A stretch of DNA of 64,000 nt, taken from Algicola sp. GTDB lineage: Bacteria; Bacteroidota; Bacteroidia; Flavobacteriales; Flavobacteriaceae. The notes beneath the pieces are model-generated. The model worked only from the letters and a program-made list of their open reading frames with translations. It was not told where the DNA came from and did not search any database. The translations under genes were made by a program, and so were the position numbers. Positions 1 through 12,722 of the stretch are shown here, one piece after another. The DNA lies in assembly GCA_018222915.1 (NCBI GenBank), contig JAAEZI010000003.1, positions 69,754-133,753 on the forward strand, given 5' to 3'. Within the stretch, counting starts at the first letter, position 1. The number at the start of each line of letters is the position of its first letter.

Positions 1-2538
1 ACACGGATTGTCATTTTCAGGAGGACAAGCCAATAGTTGTATCGGACTACTATTAATCACACAATTCACATCTTGGTCATTGCTCACAGTCACTACAACA
101 TCTACTAAAAATGGGAATGGTCCTATTTGATAAACACCAACTGATGGCACGGCCACGGTATTAGCATCTATATTATTTGATATGGTTAATGATGTGGCAT
201 CACCCAATGAGGTCACATTCACATCAATCAAGAACTGATCGCCATTGTCACAGTCGTCTATCACCTGATAGGTCGCCGTTGGATTAATACATGTCGCACA
301 GGCAACCGTGTAATCTATACCATCTGAACAACAGAAACTGCCTGACTCACAACTCACAGAACCATCTGACTGAATCTGAAATGAAATCGTATCACCCGTT
401 GACTGGAATGTCAATCCTGTGATGTCGCCGTCGTTACCCTCACCATTGTATAGCTCGGTACCATCGGTATCGAACACGACAAGGAAATCAAACGGTGCTC
501 CCTCAATCTCACCCAAGTTAATCGTAAAGTTTAATGGCGAACCATCTGAACTCGTATAGGTAAATATCTCTGAATCATTGTTGCCGTAACATAACGAGCC
601 TGTTATTGGACCAGCTGCACAGTCAACATCAAAGTTCGTCTGAATCGTCGTAGTGAAATTAACAGGACCTGACCAAATACTAAACTCACTTCCGCAGTCC
701 GCTCGTACCCAAACCTCATAGGCCGTTTCAAAACTAAGACCCGTAATATCTGCCGATGGTACCCCTACTGTTGTCCCTGGACCTGTAGGCTCGCCTGTAC
801 CTGCTGGGACCACAACGTACTCCCATGAGGTCTCCCCACTGTTAGCTGTCCAACTGATATCTGCAGTCGTACCTGTGATATTCGCAACCGTGATTCCACT
901 AGGGGGAATACAGAACGAACCACAAGACTCAACACGTATAAAATCTATAGCCATATCTCCCTCAAAGCCTGTGCCAGCACCGCCGTAACTGAACTCTAAG
1001 TAAATCACTTGACCAAGGTAAGCGTCTATATTGATCCCTACTGGAACCCAAGCCTCACTATCTGCCGTCTGATAATCACCAGCCCATGTAAATACATTCG
1101 TGAAAGGACCTGCTGGATCCGTTCCTACACCTACATTGAGCGTCCCCATATCATCTCCAAAAGCATGGAAAAAGAATGAAAGCTCAGCTCCGTCTAGCGC
1201 AGAAGTCAAATCAATCCCTGGGCTTATCGCAGATGCAATATCTGAAGCATTACCTGAGGCCTCGTACTCAAGGTGTGTCCCTGAACCACCGTCATAAGCA
1301 TTCGCTGGTCCTGTACCAAAAGAGTTGCCACCTGCAGCTGTAATCTGCCAGTTACCGTTAGAACCATCAAAGTTCGTTCCGGTCCAACCCGATGGTGGAT
1401 CCTGATCAAAATTCTCTGTAAATATGAACGAGGAGTTCCCCGTAGCACAAGCCACTCCAACTGGTGGTGGTGGTGGTGTGTTTAATGTCATAAAGTTTAT
1501 TGGACCAATCCAGCTACTAAGCCCGTCAACACCACAGTCTCCTCGTACCCAAACCTCATAACCTGTAGTTGGCGTTAAAGACATCGCCGTATATGGATTG
1601 TCTGTCGTTGAAACACCAGATCCTGTTGGAATACCTGTCCCTTGTGGCTGTACAACAACCTCCCAAGAGGTATTTAAACTGCCTGGAGTCCAGCTAATAT
1701 CTGCAGACGTGTCTGTGATGCCATCAACTGTCAGACCCGTAGGCTCTGGACAAGATGGAATCGCTCGAACTCTAAAATTATCAACAAATACATCGTTATC
1801 AGCAGTATCGTCAACAGTACCCTCTGATCCTAAAATACCAAACTGTACCGTCTGGCCTGAATAAGCTGTAAGATCGAACACAACCTGTGTCCCTGTAGCA
1901 GGAACAACACTCGTGTTATCCCATGTTAATAGTACCGTCCATGTCGCGCCATTATCCGTAGATATCAAAAGCTCAACCGTGTCATCAGATCCTAACGTAC
2001 CTGCCGTAGTAGAACTACCAAACTGCATGATCCCAAAATCAAAGTCTACCTGAAAAGGACCTCCTGTTAAATCAAACTGTGGAGATAGAATCCAATCGCT
2101 CTTCGCTGCCTGCCATAAATTAATCTTGTAGGCGCCTGAAAATCCATTATTAAGAAAGCCATCAGCAACCCAGTCTCCCGCTCCTAATCCCGTAGGACCA
2201 TTCGCAGCATCACCATCACTAGCCTCGTCCCAACAGTTAGGAATAATCGTCGCAAAACCTTCTAAATAGTCCGGAACAAAAACATCACAAGCCGTCAAAA
2301 AGTTCACAGGTCCTGTCCAGTTACTAAAACCATCAGCACCACAATCACTTCGTACCCATACCTCATAATCCGTCACAGCCGTTAATCCTCCAACTGTATA
2401 CGGATTGTCTGTCGTTGAATCTCCCGATCCTACTGGCTCACCTGTACCAATCGGCTGTACCGCAACCTCCCATGTACCCTCTGAACCACCTGCTGTCCAG
2501 GATATCTCAGCTCCTGTGGAAGTAATGTTACTTACTGT
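1..2538. repeat. Left copy of a >=2.54-kb direct repeat (truncated by window edge)
   Basis: Bases 1-2538 equal bases 8346-10883, a constant offset of 8,345. I compared lines spread along the whole length and found no mismatch or indel. Identity falls off sharply at 2538/10883, with only patchy similarity over the next dozen bases. The repeat continues past the left edge, so its true length is unknown. It lies wholly within coding sequence and has the same orientation in both adhesin genes. Confidence 0.93.
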
Positions 2539-3096
2539 AAGACCCGTTGGAAAATTACAGGTAGAGTTATAGACTTGTACATTATCCACTAACCAATACC
2601 ATGCCCAATCATTCCCATCATTATAGACAAATCGCACTTGCATGTTTGCATTTGAGTATGCAGTAATATCAATATGTTGTTGATCTGGAGCATTGAAAGC
2701 ACCAATATCTGCAGTTTGATTTAGTACTTCAATCCAATTGGTACCATCAAATACTTCTACAACAGCAGAATCTGCTCCAATGTTATTATAAAATTGATCG
2801 AAATCTAAGAATAGTGCGATCGCTCCTGTTGTATCAAATACAGGAGATGTTAACGTTTCTATTAATTCAACCCCATTACCATTGGAATCACTGTCAACGA
2901 TAGCACAATTAGTTCCATCCAGGCTGTTTCCACCACCTTGTTGACCAGAAATCCATGAATCTCCTGTGGCTGCACCAGCATCAGTAATGGTCCAAGTAAC
3001 AGGAATTTCAGTATCAAAGTTTTCTTGTAAATACGTTTGCGCATTAACCATCGAACCGGTTATCAGGAGCGCAATAATTAAGATAATTTTTTTCAT
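1..3096 (-). CDS. Large secreted FN3-repeat adhesin, partial (C-terminal part lies outside the window)
   Basis: The reading frame is open from an ATG at 3094-3096 to the window edge (1032 codons) and lacks its 3' end. Residues 1-20 form a signal peptide (MKKIILIIALLITGSMVNAQ). Residues about 21-180 are a jelly-roll, MAM-like (choice-of-anchor J type) domain. From residue 187 on, the DNA matches bases 8346-10883 inside the 1803-aa adhesin with no difference seen, giving FN3 domains alternating with MAM-like domains and then a CUB-like region. By analogy with that copy it should end in a T9SS type B sorting domain, but this is not visible. It lies 128 bp downstream of the OmpA/PD40 gene on the same strand, with a weak hairpin between. 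Likely role (inference): surface-exposed or secreted adhesin. The frame is certain, the exact function is not. Confidence 0.88.
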   Translation of the reverse strand, partial: MKKIILIIALLITGSMVNAQTYLQENFDTEIPVTWTITDAGAATGDSWISGQQGGGNSLDGTNCAIVDSDSNGNGVELIETLTSPVFDTTGAIALFLDFDQFYNNIGADSAVVEVFDGTNWIEVLNQTADIGAFNAPDQQHIDITAYSNANMQVRFVYNDGNDWAWYWLVDNVQVYNSTCNFPTGLTVSNITSTGAEISWTAGGSEGTWEVAVQPIGTGEPVGSGDSTTDNPYTVGGLTAVTDYEVWVRSDCGADGFSNWTGPVNFLTACDVFVPDYLEGFATIIPNCWDEASDGDAANGPTGLGAGDWVADGFLNNGFSGAYKINLWQAAKSDWILSPQFDLTGGPFQVDFDFGIMQFGSSTTAGTLGSDDTVELLISTDNGATWTVLLTWDNTSVVPATGTQVVFDLTAYSGQTVQFGILGSEGTVDDTADNDVFVDNFRVRAIPSCPEPTGLTVDGITDTSADISWTPGSLNTSWEVVVQPQGTGIPTGSGVSTTDNPYTAMSLTPTTGYEVWVRGDCGVDGLSSWIGPINFMTLNTPPPPPVGVACATGNSSFIFTENFDQDPPSGWTGTNFDGSNGNWQITAAGGNSFGTGPANAYDGGSGTHLEYEASGNASDIASAISPGIDLTSALDGAELSFFFHAFGDDMGTLNVGVGTDPAGPFTNVFTWAGDYQTADSEAWVPVGINIDAYLGQVIYLEFSYGGAGTGFEGDMAIDFIRVESCGSFCIPPSGITVANITGTTADISWTANSGETSWEYVVVPAGTGEPTGPGTTVGVPSADITGLSFETAYEVWVRADCGSEFSIWSGPVNFTTTIQTNFDVDCAAGPITGSLCYGNNDSEIFTYTSSDGSPLNFTINLGEIEGAPFDFLVVFDTDGTELYNGEGNDGDITGLTFQSTGDTISFQIQSDGSVSCESGSFCCSDGIDYTVACATCINPTATYQVIDDCDNGDQFLIDVNVTSLGDATSLTISNNIDANTVAVPSVGVYQIGPFPFLVDVVVTVSNDQDVNCVINSSPIQLLACPPENDNPC

Positions 3097-3164
3097 TTGT
3101 ATCGGTTGTTTTTTAACTTTTCTTCTACATAATATATTGAGCAATCTTTGCTTAAAAACCATAA

Positions 3165-3191
3165 AAGCCCTGCTTGATTAGGTCAGGGCTA
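3165..3191 (-). terminator. Weak hairpin downstream of the OmpA/PD40 gene
   Basis: Arms AGCCCTG (3166-3172) and CAGGGCT (3184-3190) can form a 7-bp stem followed on the minus strand by a short U-rich stretch (UUUUAU). It sits between the OmpA-family gene and the downstream adhesin. It may be a leaky terminator that lowers transcription of the second adhesin. No long U tract, so confidence is modest. Confidence 0.45.
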
Positions 3192-3224
3192 TATTTAGGT
3201 TCGTTATCATATGTTTTTAATTAA

Positions 3225-5138
3225 TTATTGAGCTTGTGGACCTCCACTAACAATTTTGAACTCAGATCGTCTGTTCATTTGATGTTCTTCATCTGTACAA
3301 TTCGAACCACAATCAACTTTTGGTTCATTCTCACCTTTACCCATTCCAGATATTCTTGACTTATCAATGCCTTTTGAAATCACGTATTGAACAGTTGTTT
3401 TTGCTCTTCTATCTGAAAGTTTTTCGTTATATGAATTACTTCCTCTACTATCCGTATGCGAGGTAACATCTATGACTAAATCAGGATATTTTGTCATAAT
3501 TTGAACCAGTTTATCTAATTCGAAAGCAGCCTGTGCAGTGATGTTTGATTTATCAAAATCAAAATAAATTGGATCTAAATTAATCATTTCAGGTCCTACA
3601 ATTTCTTCAATTGGATCTAGCATGATACTAACCTCTTCTTCTTCCTCTTCAGAAGCACTTACAGTCATTTTTTGACTTTCATAGCCATCCATTACCACTT
3701 CCAGTTCCGATTCTTTACCACATTCAACAATAAACTCAACAGTACCATCTGAATCAGTGACTTTAGTCAACACCTTATTACCTTGATCATCATACATGGT
3801 TACAGAAGCCGCATTAATAGGCTCTCCTGTTTTTGAGTCAGTAACCGTACCTGTAATTAATACATCACAAAGTGGTTGTAATTTTTTAATCGCATAAATG
3901 TCATCACTCCCAAGACCACCTTCTCTATTGGAAGATACAAATCCTTCTTCGGTTTCCTCATCTAAATGAAATGCAAAATCATCTGCATTACTATTGATTG
4001 GAATACCTACATTTCGTATAGGCGCCATTTTCCCATCGATCTCTTTTGTGTAAAACACATCCAAGTTTCCAAGTCCTAAATGACCATTGGAAGAGAAGTA
4101 TAAGGTGTTATTACTACTGATATAAGGAAACATTTCTTGTCCTTGTGTGTTGACTTTTTGTCCTAAGTTAACAGGATCTCCTAAGGAACCATCGTCATTG
4201 ATGTCGACCTTGTAAATATCAAACAAACCGTATCCTCCTGGCATATCAGAAGCAAAATACAAGGTTTTACCATCAGGGCTTACAGACGGGTTTTTAACTG
4301 AATAGTTCTCACTGTTAAGGGAGAATCCTTCCACATTGCTCCATTCTGAACCTGATTTAGTGGCTTTAAACAAATGCAACAAACTGTATCTGATCTTTGT
4401 AATTGAATCCTTTTCAAATTCTTTCTCAAAAAAACTCTCTCTTGAAAAATACATCGTGTTCCCATCTGGGGAGAAGGATACTACACCTTCATGGAATTTC
4501 GTATTGACTTTATCTTCAACTAAATTAGCCGCTTGATAAGTACCGTCATCATTCTTCGTCAATTCATAAATATCCAAAAATGGCTCTTCATTCCAACCAT
4601 ATGTTCTTCTGGACGTGTTTCTCGCAGACGTAATATATAATTTACCATCTTGTAGTGTTCCTCCAAAATCTGAATATTTCGAATTAAAACCTAAGTTTTG
4701 AATATTGAATTTTTTACCTTTTTCTAATATTTTAGGCAAATAATCTGGATTTTTATTAAATGCAATGGCACGGTCATCACTCGGTCTCATGGATGCAAAT
4801 TTCGCCATTTGCGTGTTTGATTCTTCGTACTTCCCATTGGCCTTTAGCATTTGTGAGTATTTAAAAATCATTTCTGGATCATCAGAGCTTTCTAATGCCT
4901 TGGCATAATAGCGCTCTGCTTCTACTGTATTAAATACATTGTAATATGATTCAGCCAGTTGACTGTAAACATAAGTATTGGCTTTGCCATCTTCAACCAA
5001 CTCAGCATATTCTTCAGCAGCTTCAACAAACTCATATCTGTTAAAATGCTTATCTGCTTTTTTTGTATCGTTATTTTGAGCAATTAAGCTGAAACTACTT
5101 AATGCTGCTATTGTAAAAAGTGTCAATAATTTTTTCAT
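3225..5138 (-). CDS. OmpA-family outer-membrane protein with TPR, PD40 and CarboxypepD-like domains
   Basis: The 637-aa protein starts with a signal peptide (cleavage near residue 20). TPR-like helices follow (about 25-105), then PD40/WD40-like beta-propeller repeats (about 215-415, with FSPDGNTMYFS, VSPDGKTLYFAS and a third NNTLYFSS copy). A carboxypeptidase-regulatory-like fold covers about 424-475, then a Glu-rich linker (EEEEEE near 497-502) and a C-terminal OmpA peptidoglycan-binding domain (about 520-632, with YFDFDKSNI and the NxxLSxxRA-type segment NEKLSDRRA). This architecture is typical of T9SS-linked OmpA proteins encoded beside PorP/SprF. It lies 19 bp downstream of the PorP/SprF gene, so co-transcription is likely. 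Probable role: anchoring the adhesin export or attachment complex to peptidoglycan. Confidence 0.92.
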   Translation of the reverse strand: MKKLLTLFTIAALSSFSLIAQNNDTKKADKHFNRYEFVEAAEEYAELVEDGKANTYVYSQLAESYYNVFNTVEAERYYAKALESSDDPEMIFKYSQMLKANGKYEESNTQMAKFASMRPSDDRAIAFNKNPDYLPKILEKGKKFNIQNLGFNSKYSDFGGTLQDGKLYITSARNTSRRTYGWNEEPFLDIYELTKNDDGTYQAANLVEDKVNTKFHEGVVSFSPDGNTMYFSRESFFEKEFEKDSITKIRYSLLHLFKATKSGSEWSNVEGFSLNSENYSVKNPSVSPDGKTLYFASDMPGGYGLFDIYKVDINDDGSLGDPVNLGQKVNTQGQEMFPYISSNNTLYFSSNGHLGLGNLDVFYTKEIDGKMAPIRNVGIPINSNADDFAFHLDEETEEGFVSSNREGGLGSDDIYAIKKLQPLCDVLITGTVTDSKTGEPINAASVTMYDDQGNKVLTKVTDSDGTVEFIVECGKESELEVVMDGYESQKMTVSASEEEEEEVSIMLDPIEEIVGPEMINLDPIYFDFDKSNITAQAAFELDKLVQIMTKYPDLVIDVTSHTDSRGSNSYNEKLSDRRAKTTVQYVISKGIDKSRISGMGKGENEPKVDCGSNCTDEEHQMNRRSEFKIVSGGPQAQ

Positions 5139-5157
5139 AATGTTTTAGCTTAATTGT

Positions 5158-6060
5158 TTAGAAGTATCTAGGTGAACGTGAAACTTTCTTCGGAAAGTTT
5201 AAATCAAATAACAATAAAAATTCGTGAGACGCTGGAGCGTACTTTTTAATATCTGAAGTAACACTATCATAAGCATATCCAATTCTAACAGAAGGTGTGA
5301 TTGCAAAATTCACCAACCCAGAGAACGAATCATCCAATCGATAGGATGCGCCAATTTCGAATTTTTCATAGAACAGTGCATTTAAGTTAACGTCAAATGA
5401 TGTAGGTGCACTGAAAGCTGACTTCACCAAAAATGATGGTTTTAATTTTGCGTTATCTGAAAGTTCGAAAACGTAACCACCCGTTACAAAGTAATGAGAG
5501 TCTTCAGATCCTATCTTATTGCCGTTTGCATCTAAATGAACAGAATTCAATATGTTAGGAACAGAAGCTGCCAAATAGTAATTATCGGTATAGTAAAAGA
5601 AGCCTGCACCAATATTTGGTGTAGTGGTATTAATATTCTGAAAAAATGGATCATTTGGATCTATTAAATCGATGTCGGCTAATCCAATATCATGGAAAGT
5701 AGCTCCAGCTTTTACACCAAACGCAAGTCTATGTTCTCCACCTAATTTTAATGTATAGGAGAAATCCGCATACGCATTGGTTTCTTTTATAGGTCCTACT
5801 TCATCCGAAATTATGGAAAGTCCTAATCCTACTTTTTCACCAACAGGTAGATGTCCAAAAAAGGTTCCTGTTTTCGGAGCTCCTTCAATACCTGTCCATT
5901 GTGTACGATACAGCAATCCAAACGACAAGTTCTCTTTAGAGCCTGCATAAGCTGGATTGATGACATTCATATTATACATGTACTGTGTATACTGTGGATC
6001 TTGCTGTCCATACACCTGTGTTGCTATGAGCAATACAATAATGATATAAAATTTTTTCAT
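5158..6060 (-). CDS. PorP/SprF-family type IX secretion outer-membrane protein
   Basis: The 300-aa protein has a signal peptide ending near residue 18. The mature N-terminus carries the PorP/SprF signature DPQYTQYMYNMNVINPAYAG, followed by repeated amphipathic beta strands consistent with an outer-membrane barrel of the FadL-like class. In flavobacteria, PorP/SprF-like proteins encoded directly after type B-domain substrates are needed for secretion or surface attachment of the cognate protein (for example SprF for SprB). The position fits that role: 65 bp after the 1803-aa adhesin and 19 bp before the OmpA/PD40 gene. Assignment of this copy to that particular adhesin is an inference from adjacency. 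Confidence 0.93.
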   Translation of the reverse strand: MKKFYIIIVLLIATQVYGQQDPQYTQYMYNMNVINPAYAGSKENLSFGLLYRTQWTGIEGAPKTGTFFGHLPVGEKVGLGLSIISDEVGPIKETNAYADFSYTLKLGGEHRLAFGVKAGATFHDIGLADIDLIDPNDPFFQNINTTTPNIGAGFFYYTDNYYLAASVPNILNSVHLDANGNKIGSEDSHYFVTGGYVFELSDNAKLKPSFLVKSAFSAPTSFDVNLNALFYEKFEIGASYRLDDSFSGLVNFAITPSVRIGYAYDSVTSDIKKYAPASHEFLLLFDLNFPKKVSRSPRYF

Positions 6061-6125
6061 TTGTTAGTTATTTGATTTAGTTGTTTTTGGTCGAATTCAA
6101 TTAATTCTTATTGTTTTTACGTTGA

Positions 6126-9100
6126 TTATTTAAGTCTTTGAATGTATACCCAAGCGGCTCTTTGTTTTCCGTTGTCATAATTCATGGTGTAGAAATATGT
6201 TCCAACAGGGAGCTCTTCTCCGTCATTAGATTGCCCATGCCACTCATTCGTATAGTTCTCTTTAGAGTATACAAGAGTTCCATTTCTATTAAAAATTTCC
6301 AATTTACTTACATTATAGCTACTCAAATCGAAAATATCATTCATACCATCACCATTTGGTGATATACCTTGAGGTATGACACAGCTTTCCAATTCTATTA
6401 CTGTTTGTGCAGTAATGCTTGAACACTGTGAACCATCATTATAAGTCACTTCAATTTCATAAAGTCCTGCTTCTAAGACTGGTAATGTTAATCCATTTTC
6501 TCCTGCAATCACACCACCATCGCGATACCAAACAATGGTCACATCAGACAACGAATAATTGTTAGGTGTTGCTGTAATCTCAATTGGTACCGTTGCGTTA
6601 GGACAAACTTCGTAATCAAAGTCTGTAGAAAAAGTTGTACTAGGCAGTGGTGTAACAATTAAATCAAAGGCGACAGTTGAATAACAATCAAACGCAATAT
6701 TACTTTCTACTCTCGCGTAGATCGTTTGACTTGCACTACTATATAGTACAGACGTATCTATGGCTCCAACGCCAGCTTCTGCATCTGCTTCGGTTTCATA
6801 ATAACTCACTGAAAAATCTGTAGCACTTTGACCATCTAAGATATTGGCATCATGTCCAGCCAAATCGAATAGGGCAACACCATCGGTATCATCATCACAA
6901 ACTTCGAGAGGAACACTTGCTGCAGTTGGTGTTGGACCTGAAATAATTAAGTCAAAACTGGTTGTTGCGAAGCAAAACTCTGCGTTAGCATCTTCAATTC
7001 TCACATAGATCGTTTGTGGATTAGAGATATTCGTATAAGGTGAAGTCAATGCGCCAGTATCAGCCTGAGCATCTGCAAGGGTCAAATGATAGGTCACATT
7101 AAAATCTGCAGGTAATTGAGAGCCTAGAACACCATCCGTTTGCATTTCTAAATCAAAATCCTCTATATTATCTGCTGAAATATCATCACAAGTAATAATA
7201 TCTGGAACCGCATTAGCAACAGGCTCTTGTCCAAACACTAAGGTAATAGAATCTTGCGCTTGCGCATCACATTGTTCGTCATATGCAATTACGGTGTACG
7301 TACTAGAACCAGTCACCGTTAAGGTTGGACCAGTTTCACCATCAATAATAAAGCCATCATCATACCACTCATAAGTATCTGCAAATGGTGATACAGCATT
7401 TAATGTATAATCTGGGAATCCACAAAAGTTTTGGTCAGGACCTAAATCTACTTCAATTTCTGCCGTGATATTTCCATCATTTGGACCACCATCATTAGTT
7501 TGACTAATAGAAATTGTACCAGGATCATCAGAAAAGTTTGTTACCAATAGGATATAAATTTCTCCCGTAAGAGCATTATCTATTGTTAAGTTTTCTGTCG
7601 CTGACGCAGAATAACTACAGTCGGCAATATTTCCAAAAGGATAAAAATCAGGACTAGAAGTATTATTAGGACAATCACCTCCAGGGTTAGGACAACCTAA
7701 ATCTAGATTTCCACAAGCTGATTCTAAATCTGCGAATGGTCCCCAAAGTACAAAGTCAACGTCTAAGCCATTACCGGCATCATCTACCTGATTAATCTGA
7801 ATTTCAATCAACCCAGGATCTCCAATTTGAATAATGTTCCATGTAGGATTTGGAGCAGAAAATAGACAAGCAATATCTGTAGGATCCGGAATACCAACAA
7901 TGTTAGATGTTGTTAATGCGCCACCTGCTTCTGCACAGAAATTCTCTGCGTTCTCACAAATAATGTTAGTTGGTGCTTCCTTAATACATAGATCAAAAGT
8001 GGTTGTTTCTGGGTTATTTCCACCAGAAAACACTCTAATATAATAGGTGTTACCAATTACCAACGGCGGTGTCACACTAGCTGTACCGTCTGTACATTCT
8101 AATTCAACCAAACCGTCACATGTACCTTCATATAACGCATGGTCTGTATTAAATCCACCACCAGCAATATTCACTAATGAAATCAATTGCACTTCACTTA
8201 AAGCTGTAAATTCAAACCAAACATCATCGTCTGGGTTTCCACCACAGGATCCACTAGGAACACCAGAATCAGTAGCTTCAATTAGACTACCTGGTGTTGT
8301 TAAGTCACATGATTGATCATCGTTAACAACAGCAACCGTGGCATTACACGGATTGTCATTTTCAGGAGGACAAGCCAATAGTTGTATCGGACTACTATTA
8401 ATCACACAATTCACATCTTGGTCATTGCTCACAGTCACTACAACATCTACTAAAAATGGGAATGGTCCTATTTGATAAACACCAACTGATGGCACGGCCA
8501 CGGTATTAGCATCTATATTATTTGATATGGTTAATGATGTGGCATCACCCAATGAGGTCACATTCACATCAATCAAGAACTGATCGCCATTGTCACAGTC
8601 GTCTATCACCTGATAGGTCGCCGTTGGATTAATACATGTCGCACAGGCAACCGTGTAATCTATACCATCTGAACAACAGAAACTGCCTGACTCACAACTC
8701 ACAGAACCATCTGACTGAATCTGAAATGAAATCGTATCACCCGTTGACTGGAATGTCAATCCTGTGATGTCGCCGTCGTTACCCTCACCATTGTATAGCT
8801 CGGTACCATCGGTATCGAACACGACAAGGAAATCAAACGGTGCTCCCTCAATCTCACCCAAGTTAATCGTAAAGTTTAATGGCGAACCATCTGAACTCGT
8901 ATAGGTAAATATCTCTGAATCATTGTTGCCGTAACATAACGAGCCTGTTATTGGACCAGCTGCACAGTCAACATCAAAGTTCGTCTGAATCGTCGTAGTG
9001 AAATTAACAGGACCTGACCAAATACTAAACTCACTTCCGCAGTCCGCTCGTACCCAAACCTCATAGGCCGTTTCAAAACTAAGACCCGTAATATCTGCCG

Positions 9101-11537
9101 ATGGTACCCCTACTGTTGTCCCTGGACCTGTAGGCTCGCCTGTACCTGCTGGGACCACAACGTACTCCCATGAGGTCTCCCCACTGTTAGCTGTCCAACT
9201 GATATCTGCAGTCGTACCTGTGATATTCGCAACCGTGATTCCACTAGGGGGAATACAGAACGAACCACAAGACTCAACACGTATAAAATCTATAGCCATA
9301 TCTCCCTCAAAGCCTGTGCCAGCACCGCCGTAACTGAACTCTAAGTAAATCACTTGACCAAGGTAAGCGTCTATATTGATCCCTACTGGAACCCAAGCCT
9401 CACTATCTGCCGTCTGATAATCACCAGCCCATGTAAATACATTCGTGAAAGGACCTGCTGGATCCGTTCCTACACCTACATTGAGCGTCCCCATATCATC
9501 TCCAAAAGCATGGAAAAAGAATGAAAGCTCAGCTCCGTCTAGCGCAGAAGTCAAATCAATCCCTGGGCTTATCGCAGATGCAATATCTGAAGCATTACCT
9601 GAGGCCTCGTACTCAAGGTGTGTCCCTGAACCACCGTCATAAGCATTCGCTGGTCCTGTACCAAAAGAGTTGCCACCTGCAGCTGTAATCTGCCAGTTAC
9701 CGTTAGAACCATCAAAGTTCGTTCCGGTCCAACCCGATGGTGGATCCTGATCAAAATTCTCTGTAAATATGAACGAGGAGTTCCCCGTAGCACAAGCCAC
9801 TCCAACTGGTGGTGGTGGTGGTGTGTTTAATGTCATAAAGTTTATTGGACCAATCCAGCTACTAAGCCCGTCAACACCACAGTCTCCTCGTACCCAAACC
9901 TCATAACCTGTAGTTGGCGTTAAAGACATCGCCGTATATGGATTGTCTGTCGTTGAAACACCAGATCCTGTTGGAATACCTGTCCCTTGTGGCTGTACAA
10001 CAACCTCCCAAGAGGTATTTAAACTGCCTGGAGTCCAGCTAATATCTGCAGACGTGTCTGTGATGCCATCAACTGTCAGACCCGTAGGCTCTGGACAAGA
10101 TGGAATCGCTCGAACTCTAAAATTATCAACAAATACATCGTTATCAGCAGTATCGTCAACAGTACCCTCTGATCCTAAAATACCAAACTGTACCGTCTGG
10201 CCTGAATAAGCTGTAAGATCGAACACAACCTGTGTCCCTGTAGCAGGAACAACACTCGTGTTATCCCATGTTAATAGTACCGTCCATGTCGCGCCATTAT
10301 CCGTAGATATCAAAAGCTCAACCGTGTCATCAGATCCTAACGTACCTGCCGTAGTAGAACTACCAAACTGCATGATCCCAAAATCAAAGTCTACCTGAAA
10401 AGGACCTCCTGTTAAATCAAACTGTGGAGATAGAATCCAATCGCTCTTCGCTGCCTGCCATAAATTAATCTTGTAGGCGCCTGAAAATCCATTATTAAGA
10501 AAGCCATCAGCAACCCAGTCTCCCGCTCCTAATCCCGTAGGACCATTCGCAGCATCACCATCACTAGCCTCGTCCCAACAGTTAGGAATAATCGTCGCAA
10601 AACCTTCTAAATAGTCCGGAACAAAAACATCACAAGCCGTCAAAAAGTTCACAGGTCCTGTCCAGTTACTAAAACCATCAGCACCACAATCACTTCGTAC
10701 CCATACCTCATAATCCGTCACAGCCGTTAATCCTCCAACTGTATACGGATTGTCTGTCGTTGAATCTCCCGATCCTACTGGCTCACCTGTACCAATCGGC
10801 TGTACCGCAACCTCCCATGTACCCTCTGAACCACCTGCTGTCCAGGATATCTCAGCTCCTGTGGAAGTAATGTTACTTACTGTTATGCCCGTTGGTTCAG
10901 GGCAACTTACTTCAAATATTGTTACTGTGTCAAATGCGACACCTTCGTCTTCAACAGATGTGTCGGATCCAAATGCGACTCTCAAAATCACATTAGCTTC
11001 ACCAGCCAATCCGGTAAGTGCATGTCGGGCAATCACCCAACCACCAGAGCCAGAAGCACCTCTACCTGTCCAACCTACTTGTTGGCCACCAGGGTTTCCT
11101 GCGATTGTTCCATCATTGTACCAGTTATTCGGATCACCTAGAGCTCCTACATTTTGCCATGAAGCTCCTCCATCTATAGAGGATTGTAAAACCATACCAT
11201 CCCAGCTGAATTCAGAATTCCACCAAATACTCATTTCAATAGCGGGAGCACTTAACGCTGTTAAATCAAAAACAGGACTCACCACAAAAGAATCTTCACT
11301 CGTATTGTAGTTTCCTGTCAAATTTGTTACCCAAGCATTAGCGCCAGAGTCTGCACTGTTTATCACAGCATTAGTTGGCGCTCCAAGAGCCCAGGTTCCT
11401 GCGTTGGTGTTGTCTGCAACCCAGCCTCCATCTCCAGATTCAAAATCTTCTACATAAGGGTACGACGCAATCTGCGCATCGACACACCAAATAGAAAAAA
11501 CAAGGAGGAATGATAACGAGAGTATAATTTTTTTCAT
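6126..11537 (-). CDS. Large multidomain adhesin with FN3 repeats and T9SS type B (gliding-motility) sorting domain
   Basis: The 1803-aa protein starts with a signal peptide (about 1-21). A MAM-like/choice-of-anchor J head follows (about 25-210), then FN3 (about 213-300), a jelly-roll domain (about 305-478), FN3 (about 482-570), a Pro-rich linker (TPPPPP), a third jelly-roll domain (about 585-760) and FN3 (about 765-850). Next come a Cys-containing CUB-like domain (about 860-970), Ig-like and pre-peptidase-C-like segments (about 970-1340), two related repeats ending TIYVRIE/TIYARVE and SFDLI/AFDLI (about 1415-1610), and an Ig-like domain. The C-terminus is a type B sorting domain (from about 1725: QGISPNGDGMNDIFDL to the end). 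Residues 219-1064 are encoded by the DNA repeated in the partial adhesin at the left edge. It is first in a likely operon with PorP/SprF and OmpA partners. Ligand unknown. Confidence 0.93.
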   Translation of the reverse strand: MKKIILSLSFLLVFSIWCVDAQIASYPYVEDFESGDGGWVADNTNAGTWALGAPTNAVINSADSGANAWVTNLTGNYNTSEDSFVVSPVFDLTALSAPAIEMSIWWNSEFSWDGMVLQSSIDGGASWQNVGALGDPNNWYNDGTIAGNPGGQQVGWTGRGASGSGGWVIARHALTGLAGEANVILRVAFGSDTSVEDEGVAFDTVTIFEVSCPEPTGITVSNITSTGAEISWTAGGSEGTWEVAVQPIGTGEPVGSGDSTTDNPYTVGGLTAVTDYEVWVRSDCGADGFSNWTGPVNFLTACDVFVPDYLEGFATIIPNCWDEASDGDAANGPTGLGAGDWVADGFLNNGFSGAYKINLWQAAKSDWILSPQFDLTGGPFQVDFDFGIMQFGSSTTAGTLGSDDTVELLISTDNGATWTVLLTWDNTSVVPATGTQVVFDLTAYSGQTVQFGILGSEGTVDDTADNDVFVDNFRVRAIPSCPEPTGLTVDGITDTSADISWTPGSLNTSWEVVVQPQGTGIPTGSGVSTTDNPYTAMSLTPTTGYEVWVRGDCGVDGLSSWIGPINFMTLNTPPPPPVGVACATGNSSFIFTENFDQDPPSGWTGTNFDGSNGNWQITAAGGNSFGTGPANAYDGGSGTHLEYEASGNASDIASAISPGIDLTSALDGAELSFFFHAFGDDMGTLNVGVGTDPAGPFTNVFTWAGDYQTADSEAWVPVGINIDAYLGQVIYLEFSYGGAGTGFEGDMAIDFIRVESCGSFCIPPSGITVANITGTTADISWTANSGETSWEYVVVPAGTGEPTGPGTTVGVPSADITGLSFETAYEVWVRADCGSEFSIWSGPVNFTTTIQTNFDVDCAAGPITGSLCYGNNDSEIFTYTSSDGSPLNFTINLGEIEGAPFDFLVVFDTDGTELYNGEGNDGDITGLTFQSTGDTISFQIQSDGSVSCESGSFCCSDGIDYTVACATCINPTATYQVIDDCDNGDQFLIDVNVTSLGDATSLTISNNIDANTVAVPSVGVYQIGPFPFLVDVVVTVSNDQDVNCVINSSPIQLLACPPENDNPCNATVAVVNDDQSCDLTTPGSLIEATDSGVPSGSCGGNPDDDVWFEFTALSEVQLISLVNIAGGGFNTDHALYEGTCDGLVELECTDGTASVTPPLVIGNTYYIRVFSGGNNPETTTFDLCIKEAPTNIICENAENFCAEAGGALTTSNIVGIPDPTDIACLFSAPNPTWNIIQIGDPGLIEIQINQVDDAGNGLDVDFVLWGPFADLESACGNLDLGCPNPGGDCPNNTSSPDFYPFGNIADCSYSASATENLTIDNALTGEIYILLVTNFSDDPGTISISQTNDGGPNDGNITAEIEVDLGPDQNFCGFPDYTLNAVSPFADTYEWYDDGFIIDGETGPTLTVTGSSTYTVIAYDEQCDAQAQDSITLVFGQEPVANAVPDIITCDDISADNIEDFDLEMQTDGVLGSQLPADFNVTYHLTLADAQADTGALTSPYTNISNPQTIYVRIEDANAEFCFATTSFDLIISGPTPTAASVPLEVCDDDTDGVALFDLAGHDANILDGQSATDFSVSYYETEADAEAGVGAIDTSVLYSSASQTIYARVESNIAFDCYSTVAFDLIVTPLPSTTFSTDFDYEVCPNATVPIEITATPNNYSLSDVTIVWYRDGGVIAGENGLTLPVLEAGLYEIEVTYNDGSQCSSITAQTVIELESCVIPQGISPNGDGMNDIFDLSSYNVSKLEIFNRNGTLVYSKENYTNEWHGQSNDGEELPVGTYFYTMNYDNGKQRAAWVYIQRLK
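8346..10883. repeat. Right copy of the >=2.54-kb direct repeat inside the 1803-aa adhesin gene
   Basis: Matches bases 1-2538 throughout the lines compared. It encodes residues about 219-1064. The upstream boundary falls at the first strand of the first FN3 domain (ITVSN here, LTVSN in the other copy), so the two genes differ in head domain but share the FN3/jelly-roll stalk. Hand counts of a few 60-base lines suggest the repeat is richer in G+C (about 42-55%) than flanking adhesin sequence (about 33-43%). Confidence 0.93.
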
Positions 11538-11756: not shown

Positions 11757-12722
11757 TTATAATTCAGTTACATTTAATCGCAGGTAAACTGGAAAATGAT
11801 CACTATAACCTCCTTTGTATTTTCTTCCAACATAAGTTCTGAATGGTTGCCCTTTAAACTTTCCTTTGTACTGGGTCAAAAAAGCTTCATCAAATATATC
11901 AGCTTCATCAAATTTCAGACAATTTAAACCTGTTTCAAAAAAGTTCGTAGAACAAAGTATCTGATCAAACAAGTTCCATCTAAAATTGTGGTTTAAACTG
12001 CCTCTATTATATGATAGCAATGTTTCCATTGGATTAAATAGGTTACTGGCTTTAGTCAAATGCTTTATACTATCATTTGCTGGGTTATCATTAAAATCTC
12101 CCATCACTAAAATTTTAGCATCGGCATCCTCCGCTTTAATCTTACCAATGATTTCAACGACTTTTTGCGCAGCTGTCATTCGTTTCGGTGATGATTCTAT
12201 TACGCCTTCTCTTCGCGAAGGCCAGTGATTCACAATGCAGTGTATCTTTTCAGCATGTAATTCTCCCGTGACAACCAAAATATCTCGGGTATAATCTTGA
12301 GCGCCAATGTCATCCTCAAGATAAATGCCAAAGGTTTGAGAATGCTCTACCGTAAAAACAGTTTTATCATATATCAATGCCACATCGATTCCTCGCTCAT
12401 CCTGTGAATTATAATGAACAAACCCATAATTATGACTCGCAAGTTCTTTGCTTTGAATTAAATCCCGAACAACGTTTTTGTTTTCAACTTCAGCTAATCC
12501 AACTATTGCTGGCGGCTTCACAGACTCCTTTGGACCAATTTTAGAAATTACCTGACCTAGTTTGTAGAGTTTTCTTTCGTAACGATTTTTTGTCCAGCGT
12601 TTCTCTGAACCTGGCAAAAAATCGTCATCAAATTTTGAAGCATCAGTATGTATATCAAAAAGATTTTCGAGATTATAAAATGCTATGGTATACGATGTTG
12701 TTTTCAAGTCTTTGGAATCCAC
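11757..12722 (-). CDS. Endonuclease/exonuclease/phosphatase (EEP) family protein
   Basis: The 321-aa protein carries EEP-fold motifs in order: YNLENLFD near the N-terminus, VGLAEVEN (metal-binding Glu), a VNHWPSRR segment with the catalytic His, MGDFNDNP (Asp/Asn pair) and a C-terminal YSDHFPV with the catalytic Asp-His. The fold hydrolyses phosphodiester bonds in nucleic acids or phospholipids, and the substrate here cannot be told. No signal peptide is evident. The start is GTG at 12720-12722: no ATG lies between the upstream in-frame stop and the first motif, and an exact -7 box (TAAATTTG, minus strand, 12727-12734) ends four bases before it, suggesting a leaderless mRNA. The gene is divergent from hflX, with 72 bp between start codons. 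Confidence 0.85.
   Translation of the reverse strand: MDSKDLKTTSYTIAFYNLENLFDIHTDASKFDDDFLPGSEKRWTKNRYERKLYKLGQVISKIGPKESVKPPAIVGLAEVENKNVVRDLIQSKELASHNYGFVHYNSQDERGIDVALIYDKTVFTVEHSQTFGIYLEDDIGAQDYTRDILVVTGELHAEKIHCIVNHWPSRREGVIESSPKRMTAAQKVVEIIGKIKAEDADAKILVMGDFNDNPANDSIKHLTKASNLFNPMETLLSYNRGSLNHNFRWNLFDQILCSTNFFETGLNCLKFDEADIFDEAFLTQYKGKFKGQPFRTYVGRKYKGGYSDHFPVYLRLNVTEL

Follow-up and report, generated by a model that had tools for sequence, protein, structure and literature searches.

The question raised by this locus is why two adhesin-like genes, separated by a PorP/SprF gene and an OmpA gene, should share a long stretch of identical DNA. The locus lies at the start of the window, by which is meant the whole 64-kb stretch of DNA that was analysed (G000:C73:69754-133753). 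Direct sequence comparison showed that positions 1-2538 equal positions 8346-10883 at a constant offset of 8,345 with 0 mismatches, as the initial annotation had claimed, and that identity collapses at 2539/10884. The length had been given there as at least 2.54 kb; this size held, and the lower bound turns into an exact length of 2,538 bp, since the flank to the left of the window and gene A differ directly past a 55-base overlap. A BLASTN self-comparison (word 20, E 1e-10) found no second repeat within the whole window. All four genes are on the minus strand and are transcribed in the order gene A, PorP/SprF, OmpA (PorE-like), gene B. The features of the locus are as follows:

1-2538, minus strand: repeat copy in gene B (gene 1), an exact match to 8346-10883
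1-3162, minus strand: 5' part of gene B, 1,054 codons in the window, continuing left of a scaffold gap to C73:67433
2539-3162, minus strand: 5' end of gene B with head 1 (choice-of-anchor J), outside the repeat
3225-5138, minus strand: OmpA-family protein with PD40 repeats, PorE-like, 637 aa, below NCBIfam cut-offs
5158-6060, minus strand: PorP/SprF-family outer-membrane protein, 300 aa (TIGR03519, 287.3 bits, cut-off 90.55; PF11751)
6126-11537, minus strand: gene A, an adhesin-like protein of 1,803 aa with a T9SS type B C-terminal domain, by profile matches
6141-6377, minus strand: CHU_C/Bac_Flav_CTERM type B sorting domain of gene A (residues 1721-1799), outside the shared tract
8346-10883, minus strand: repeat copy in gene A (gene 2), an exact match to 1-2538
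10884-11537, minus strand: signal peptide of gene A (recognised by eye) with head 2 (InhA-like MAM), not part of the repeat

The initial annotation had called for extension to the left with long reads; in the assembled scaffold, gene 1 goes on beyond the gap as far as C73:67433, and its C-terminus there resembles the sorting end of gene 2. Counted from the ATG at 3162, and provided that the gap hides nothing, gene B encodes 1,775 aa, although its true start is likely the ATG at 3096, as judged by eye from sister species. The sorting domain of gene A scored 82.8 bits against PF13585 (cut-off 27) and 46.2 bits against TIGR04131 (cut-off 35); for gene B the evidence is from alignment rather than profile models, with 86 of the last 100 residues identical to those of gene A and the last 162 or so residues 80% identical. 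The two adhesins resemble substrates of type IX secretion, with C-termini of type B, and an adhesive function is predicted for both from their sequences. A linked PorP/SprF shuttle gene, as is looked for beside a type B substrate, is present at 5158-6060. The OmpA-family protein scored 387.6 of the 600 bits required for the PorE family and 457.7 of the 620 required for the CHU_0125 family; it is related to these OmpA families and is not filed as a member of them. A promoter pattern of the Bacteroidetes type had no strict match in any of four stretches searched, while its relaxed form matched once upstream of gene A and 18 times in the whole window. It should also be noted that similar-looking endonuclease/exonuclease/phosphatase-like proteins (by eye) flank the locus on both sides (window 11757-12722 and G000:C73:61406-62485).

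Within gene B the repeat copy encodes, in order, fn3, a J-type domain, fn3, MAM, fn3 and a CUB-like stretch, the last named by eye. On the low-coordinate side this copy is bounded by the scaffold gap adjoining the window, and the tract starts at the head/fn3 boundary, where homology between A and B begins. The heads beyond this boundary had been described as unrelated. At the DNA level there is indeed little similarity (41-53% identity in the first five 50-codon windows), but at the family level the description proved too strong. Head 1 scored 31.9 bits against choice-of-anchor J (cut-off 30), a family matched by head 1 in 11/11 members, and head 2 scored 23.0 bits alone and 29 in the whole protein against InhA-like MAM (cut-off 26.9), matched in 17/17 members with E up to 0.1. 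A profile comparison of the two heads gave a 35% probability over 46 columns, and they may be distant kin, though little of their DNA is alike. In addition, head 2 has matches to myxosortase-dependent M36 metallopeptidases, in 17/17 members and far below the model cut-off. The predicted head structures were poor (mean pLDDT 51.0 and 50.0 for heads 1 and 2), and searches against solved structures returned weak matches: for head 1 the structure 3m1h, a chain of a lysine-specific cysteine protease (E=0.011), followed by globins, and for head 2 a PkwA kinase chain (0.001) and triosephosphate isomerase (0.77).

To place the repeat in a wider context, PorP was sought in 97 genomes, among them the window's own and 22 relatives from the same genus (Psychroserpens in the broad GTDB sense, one genome per species). 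The order gene A, PorP/SprF, OmpA, gene B was found in 21 of the 22, with both adhesins complete in 18 and cut by contig ends in three (G009, G019 and G022); G013, in which the best PorP match is distant, stands outside both the layout count and the A/B set. The A/B set of 21 genomes is made up of the window, the 18 same-genus genomes with complete genes and the named loci L072 and L078, the three with genes cut by contig ends being left out. No gene B was present in the stretch examined of Ichthyenterobacterium (L076) or of a second cassette in G011 (L061, G011:C1:212500-232499), the latter an A-PorP-OmpA unit whose PorP is 90% identical to that of the window.

Genes A and B were compared within each genome in 50-codon windows and by exact-match runs. 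A species-specific, near-identical A/B tract was detected in 6 of the 21 genomes with both genes complete, namely the window, G012, G002, G014, G008 and G020. The tract of G012, a single-contig genome, measures 2,956 bp with no mismatch, and that of G002, also a single contig, 2,947 bp with one mismatch between runs of 981 and 1,965 bp. G014 has an exact run of 1,574 bp and further windows at 96-99%, while G008 and G020 are mosaics with exact runs of up to 312 and 265 bp. The other 15 genomes lacked such a tract: 14 reached at most 91% in any 50-codon window, and the remaining one, G018, showed a weaker signal of 81-95% over five windows, with 95% in one. Near-perfect tracts were thus present in two of the four single-contig genomes of the genus (G002, G003, G006 and G012). 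Identity between the paralogues within genomes, set against divergence between species, gives strong support to gene conversion, one of the two origins that the initial annotation had proposed. The locus very probably holds an old gene pair under recurrent gene conversion of the exported passenger, with the signal peptide and type B sorting end staying private to each gene.

The stalk is not the only part that appears to travel. Head 2 in gene A together with head 1 in gene B was the arrangement in 13 of the 21 genomes. Head 2 was found in both genes of G012 and G017, and head 1 in both genes of G002 and G014; in G010, G016, G003 and G021 gene A has neither head and gene B has head 1. The draft genome G022 has the start of head 2 (its first ~20 residues only) in gene B. 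Head-swap and deletion alleles, which it had been suggested to look for in sister strains, were sought here across sister species. The predicted swapping of heads on a common stalk can now be seen between species (G012, G017, the draft G022, G002 and G014), while no deletion of PorP-OmpA by recombination was seen in the 21 same-genus genomes with the layout. The identical tract itself includes the head in G012 (head 2) and in G002 (head 1), starting in both at the end of the region coding for the signal peptide (signal peptides by eye); in G014 it starts ~14 codons later than that point. As for the direction of copying, the MAM segment is present in 17/21 A genes and in 6/21 B genes, and those six are exactly the genomes with a tract. 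Since MAM is otherwise confined to A genes, the stalk in the window was probably copied from A to B, and this is the direction that the distribution suggests for stalk copying generally. Under this direction G002 and G014 would need a later copying of the head from B to A.

From these arrangements a bolder reading can be drawn, in which the genus possesses a head-exchange device made up of two adhesin genes with fixed secretion addresses around a single shuttle and a single anchor, complete passengers being repeatedly copied between the two addresses within populations and switching tip specificity with secretion unchanged. It is put forward tentatively, and we think it has a minor chance of being right; if true, the passenger would begin just past the signal peptide and stop well short of the sorting domain. 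Somewhat less likely still is programmed antigenic or phase variation, that is, frequent conversion within populations driven by a dedicated mechanism or strong selection. The recurrence in several species, the exchange of heads and the near-zero divergence of several tracts are what such a system would leave behind. However, 15 of the 21 genomes have no tract of this kind, and ordinary homologous recombination suffices to account for those that do.

The identity seen in the window itself must be read with the quality of its assembly in mind. The source genome (G000) consists of 94 contigs totalling 3.35 Mb, at 94.98% completeness and 5.42% contamination. Directly left of window position 1 lie 100 N (G000:C73:69654-69753), and the 55 bases before the N run equal window positions 1-55 and 8346-8400, the next base differing. 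This arrangement points to de Bruijn assembly at k=55, in which case both window copies may stem from one graph node with small differences smoothed away. As the assembler possibly used one collapsed sequence twice, the perfect identity of the window is weak evidence when taken alone, and its 100% value may be partly an assembly effect. The extreme form of this concern is that a collapsed short-read repeat was written twice, making the perfect identity or even the second copy unreal; the gap with its overlap, the fragmentation and the contamination would all fit. So would the presence in the bin of a 7,104-bp contig (C24, locus L009, G000:C24:1-7104) which carries the same gene set, has both ends inside adhesin genes and appears to come from another Psychroserpens lineage.

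Contig C24 was considered as a third cassette of the same genome and rejected, because its PorP-OmpA DNA is 87% identical to that of G019/P. mesophilus. Among the ten best matches listed, the same DNA is 84% identical to G002 and G020 and at most 80% identical to other loci. The two long pieces of C24 are 73-74% identical to the window's scaffold, the PorP-OmpA tree groups C24 with G019, and among the matches listed none is an exact overlap between C24 and another contig of the bin. C24 is a probable contaminant from a second Psychroserpens lineage.

Several points nevertheless make a purely artefactual origin improbable. On one linear chromosome such a graph would still call for two copies of the repeat, and the only order allowed would be left flank, repeat, head 1, OmpA, PorP, tail of A, repeat, head 2, and the gene order of the window agrees with that of the sister genomes. 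With gene B joined across the gap, 59 residues separate its U segment from its GBD domain, just as in gene A, and the tree places its sorting end among those of B genes. The same phenomenon is also present in the single-contig genomes G012 and G002, although polishing could homogenise repeats in such genomes too.

The draft genomes with cut genes show breaks within A and B. In G009 each of the contig pairs C33/C10 and C33/C11 breaks off at a shared point within the adhesin genes, and in G019 contigs C16 and C1 start at a shared point; identity next to these breaks is 76-88%. No exact end overlap of at least 21 bases between the cut contigs was found in G009 or G019, which for this reason provide weaker support. 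In G022 a stretch of 77 bases at the end of C7 recurs exactly within C4. B-type ends are on the partner contigs C11, C1 and C4, and A-type ends on C33, C16 and C7. Near-identical A/B repeats would be expected to break draft assemblies at these places.

The initial annotation had also proposed recent duplication; in this view an adhesin gene of this strain was lately duplicated in tandem, and the ends diverged afterwards. The direct orientation, the spacing of 8.3 kb and the full identity suit a young duplication, and related loci of Winogradskyella do contain cassettes duplicated in tandem. Against it, the four-gene layout is already present in 21 of the 22 same-genus genomes (three with cut genes), and the C-termini tell of an older separation. 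Past the tract, the C-termini of window genes A and B are 60.0% identical at the nucleotide level; with genes at the same position in other genomes, identity is 61.7-78.8% for A-A and 65.9-77.0% for B-B, and exceeds the A-B value in all 20 of the other genomes. The C-termini are hence far from near-identical and the layout is shared with sister species, the reverse of what marks a recent tandem duplication, and this origin is held to be very improbable.

Phylogenetic trees were constructed from different parts of the locus. The tree of the sorting ends (42 genes) requires 2 changes of the A/B label; it is no clean split, with the B genes in two groups and G003_A isolated, and a single change occurs in 4% of bootstraps. 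The stalk tree, built from 38 of the 42 genes (four left out at <80% coverage), requires 9 changes. It pairs A and B of the same genome for the window, G012, G008, G014, G020 and G002, each with 100% bootstrap support or identical rows. On the PorP-OmpA tree the converted state needs 5 changes, a number as low being reached in 231-246 of 500 shuffles, and is scattered as shuffled labels are. The three trees, together with the C-terminal identities and the fourfold-degenerate sites, indicate that the pair is old and that the tracts represent separate later copying or repeated re-copying. As in concerted evolution, the paralogues are closer to each other within genomes than to genes at the same position elsewhere, in part of the gene only.

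Homogenisation of synonymous sites, as in gene-converted paralogue pairs, was also observed. All 449 of 449 fourfold-degenerate sites in the window tract are identical between the A and B copies, as are all of the 510 and 485 such sites in the tracts of G012 and G002 (1.000 in each); the fraction is 0.980 in G014, 0.936 in G020 and 0.864 in G008. Between gene A of the window and gene A of five other species, fourfold identity is 30-42%, with the protein of the same segment 81-85% identical. The notion that purifying selection alone keeps the shared stalk identical has nothing in its favour beyond the common domain order, and with fourfold sites all identical within the genome but at 30-42% between species for the same protein segment it has practically no chance of being correct, in line with the argument made when the repeat was first described.

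Under recurrent gene conversion, the locus would be an old four-gene operon-like unit of adhesin A, a PorP/SprF shuttle, an OmpA/PorE-like anchor and adhesin B, and the 2,538-bp identity would reflect a recent homologous gene conversion between A and B. RecA-type recombination is presumed to copy the passenger, that is, the stalk and sometimes the head, of one gene over the other. The tracts seem to stop about where homology weakens, so that each gene would keep its own signal peptide and sorting end. It is probably this weakened homology that keeps the signal peptide and the C-terminal region private, an alternative being selection for pairing with the shuttle. A crossover between A and B would delete PorP and OmpA, and this may be why conversions are the events that survive. 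The cell would then display two adhesins differing mainly in the tip through one shuttle and one anchor, and heads could move between two secretion addresses. The 86% identity of the last 100 residues of A and B means that one shuttle may serve both.

The components of such a unit have been described in other Bacteroidetes. T9SS substrates with type B ends depend on PorP/SprF shuttles, and a shuttle can be shared between type B ends of 68% identity (PMC12618676). The F. johnsoniae genes Fjoh_3952, Fjoh_3951 and Fjoh_3950 encode a type B adhesin, its shuttle and a PorE homologue, the same kind of gene trio as here, and the adhesin appears to be statically anchored through the PorE homologue; the available part of that paper concerns secretion and targeting, and a second adhesin or sequence exchange is not described in it (PMC12618676). 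A PorE-PorP-type B complex has been reported from P. gingivalis (PMC9143113). In close SprF homologues an invariant Cys-X-Cys is needed for linkage to the gliding track (PMC12635249). The Cys-X-Cys in the C-tail of the shuttle that would mark a gliding adhesin unit of the SprB/SprF type is absent here: the PorP of the window contains no cysteine, nor do 25 further PorP proteins from the genus group that were examined (one of them from C24). Set against the SprF homologues, this makes static rather than gliding adhesins likely.

The products of rgpA, kgp and hagA of Porphyromonas gingivalis are T9SS-linked surface proteins, and these genes are the closest known case. They contain identical adhesin repeats within and between genes, which automated assembly left unresolved, and gene conversion has been discussed as a source of antigenic variation (PMC5266723). 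The likeness lies in surface proteins whose identical adhesin repeats trouble assembly; the weak best structure match of head 1 is likewise to a lysine-specific cysteine protease chain. In P. gingivalis, diversity is attributed to domain rearrangement and allelic exchange, with stress on exchange between strains of one species (PMC5266723), whereas here the copying is within genomes and in several species. The arrangement also differs from gingipains plus hagA: a single PorP shuttle lies between two type B adhesins in a locus that resembles an operon.

A repeat unit comparable in content, with an adhesin, a PorP/SprF protein and an outer-membrane protein, is known from Flavobacterium psychrophilum, in which a 10-kb inverted repeat flanks a chromosomal inversion (PMC5808330). 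There the copies are inverted and the outcome is a large inversion, whereas the copies at the present locus are direct, lie 8.3 kb apart and exchange only part of the adhesin gene. A more distant parallel is that of Helicobacter pylori, whose BabA/BabB family is unrelated to the present adhesins. Intragenomic recombination between the paralogous adhesin genes babA and babB was described there with data from clinical strains of a stomach pathogen (PMC3444412), while the present comparison is between species. Among the open-licence full texts listed, no title or abstract opening dealing with this locus was found. The kind of phenomenon, conversion of adhesin repeats, is already known, and this locus is a further case of it, its strength being the recurrence across a genus and the boundaries at base level.

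What the locus would add is a set of naturally occurring passenger exchanges, resolved to the base and found in several species, between two type B T9SS substrates that seem to have a shuttle in common; the stalk and sometimes the head travel, while the signal peptide and the C-terminal region stay. The rule that the C-terminus fixes the destination and the passenger is interchangeable thereby becomes testable in marine bacteria. Assemblies can also break or collapse at adhesin genes of this sort, and head diversity and copy number are possibly under-counted.

Duplications of a different kind were observed in related loci. In Winogradskyella sp. SP247 (L101/L102, PBLD01000001.1) three adhesin-PorP-OmpA units lie in tandem, as judged by locus overlap; two stretches with a spacing of 8,659 bp agree at 99.98% over 4,791 bp, and the shuttle genes are duplicated too. 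The Winogradskyella MAG DT_120 contains a tandem duplication of an adhesin-PorP-OmpA unit (L099, 5945-12907 and 13113-20071), 6,965 bp at 99.24% identity. Within gene A itself, tandem domain duplications with a period of 618 bp were found in L057 (3838-5640, 84% identical) and L061 (4578-6410, 91% identical), with periods near 807 bp in other loci, which indicates that stalks also change by the gain or loss of modules.
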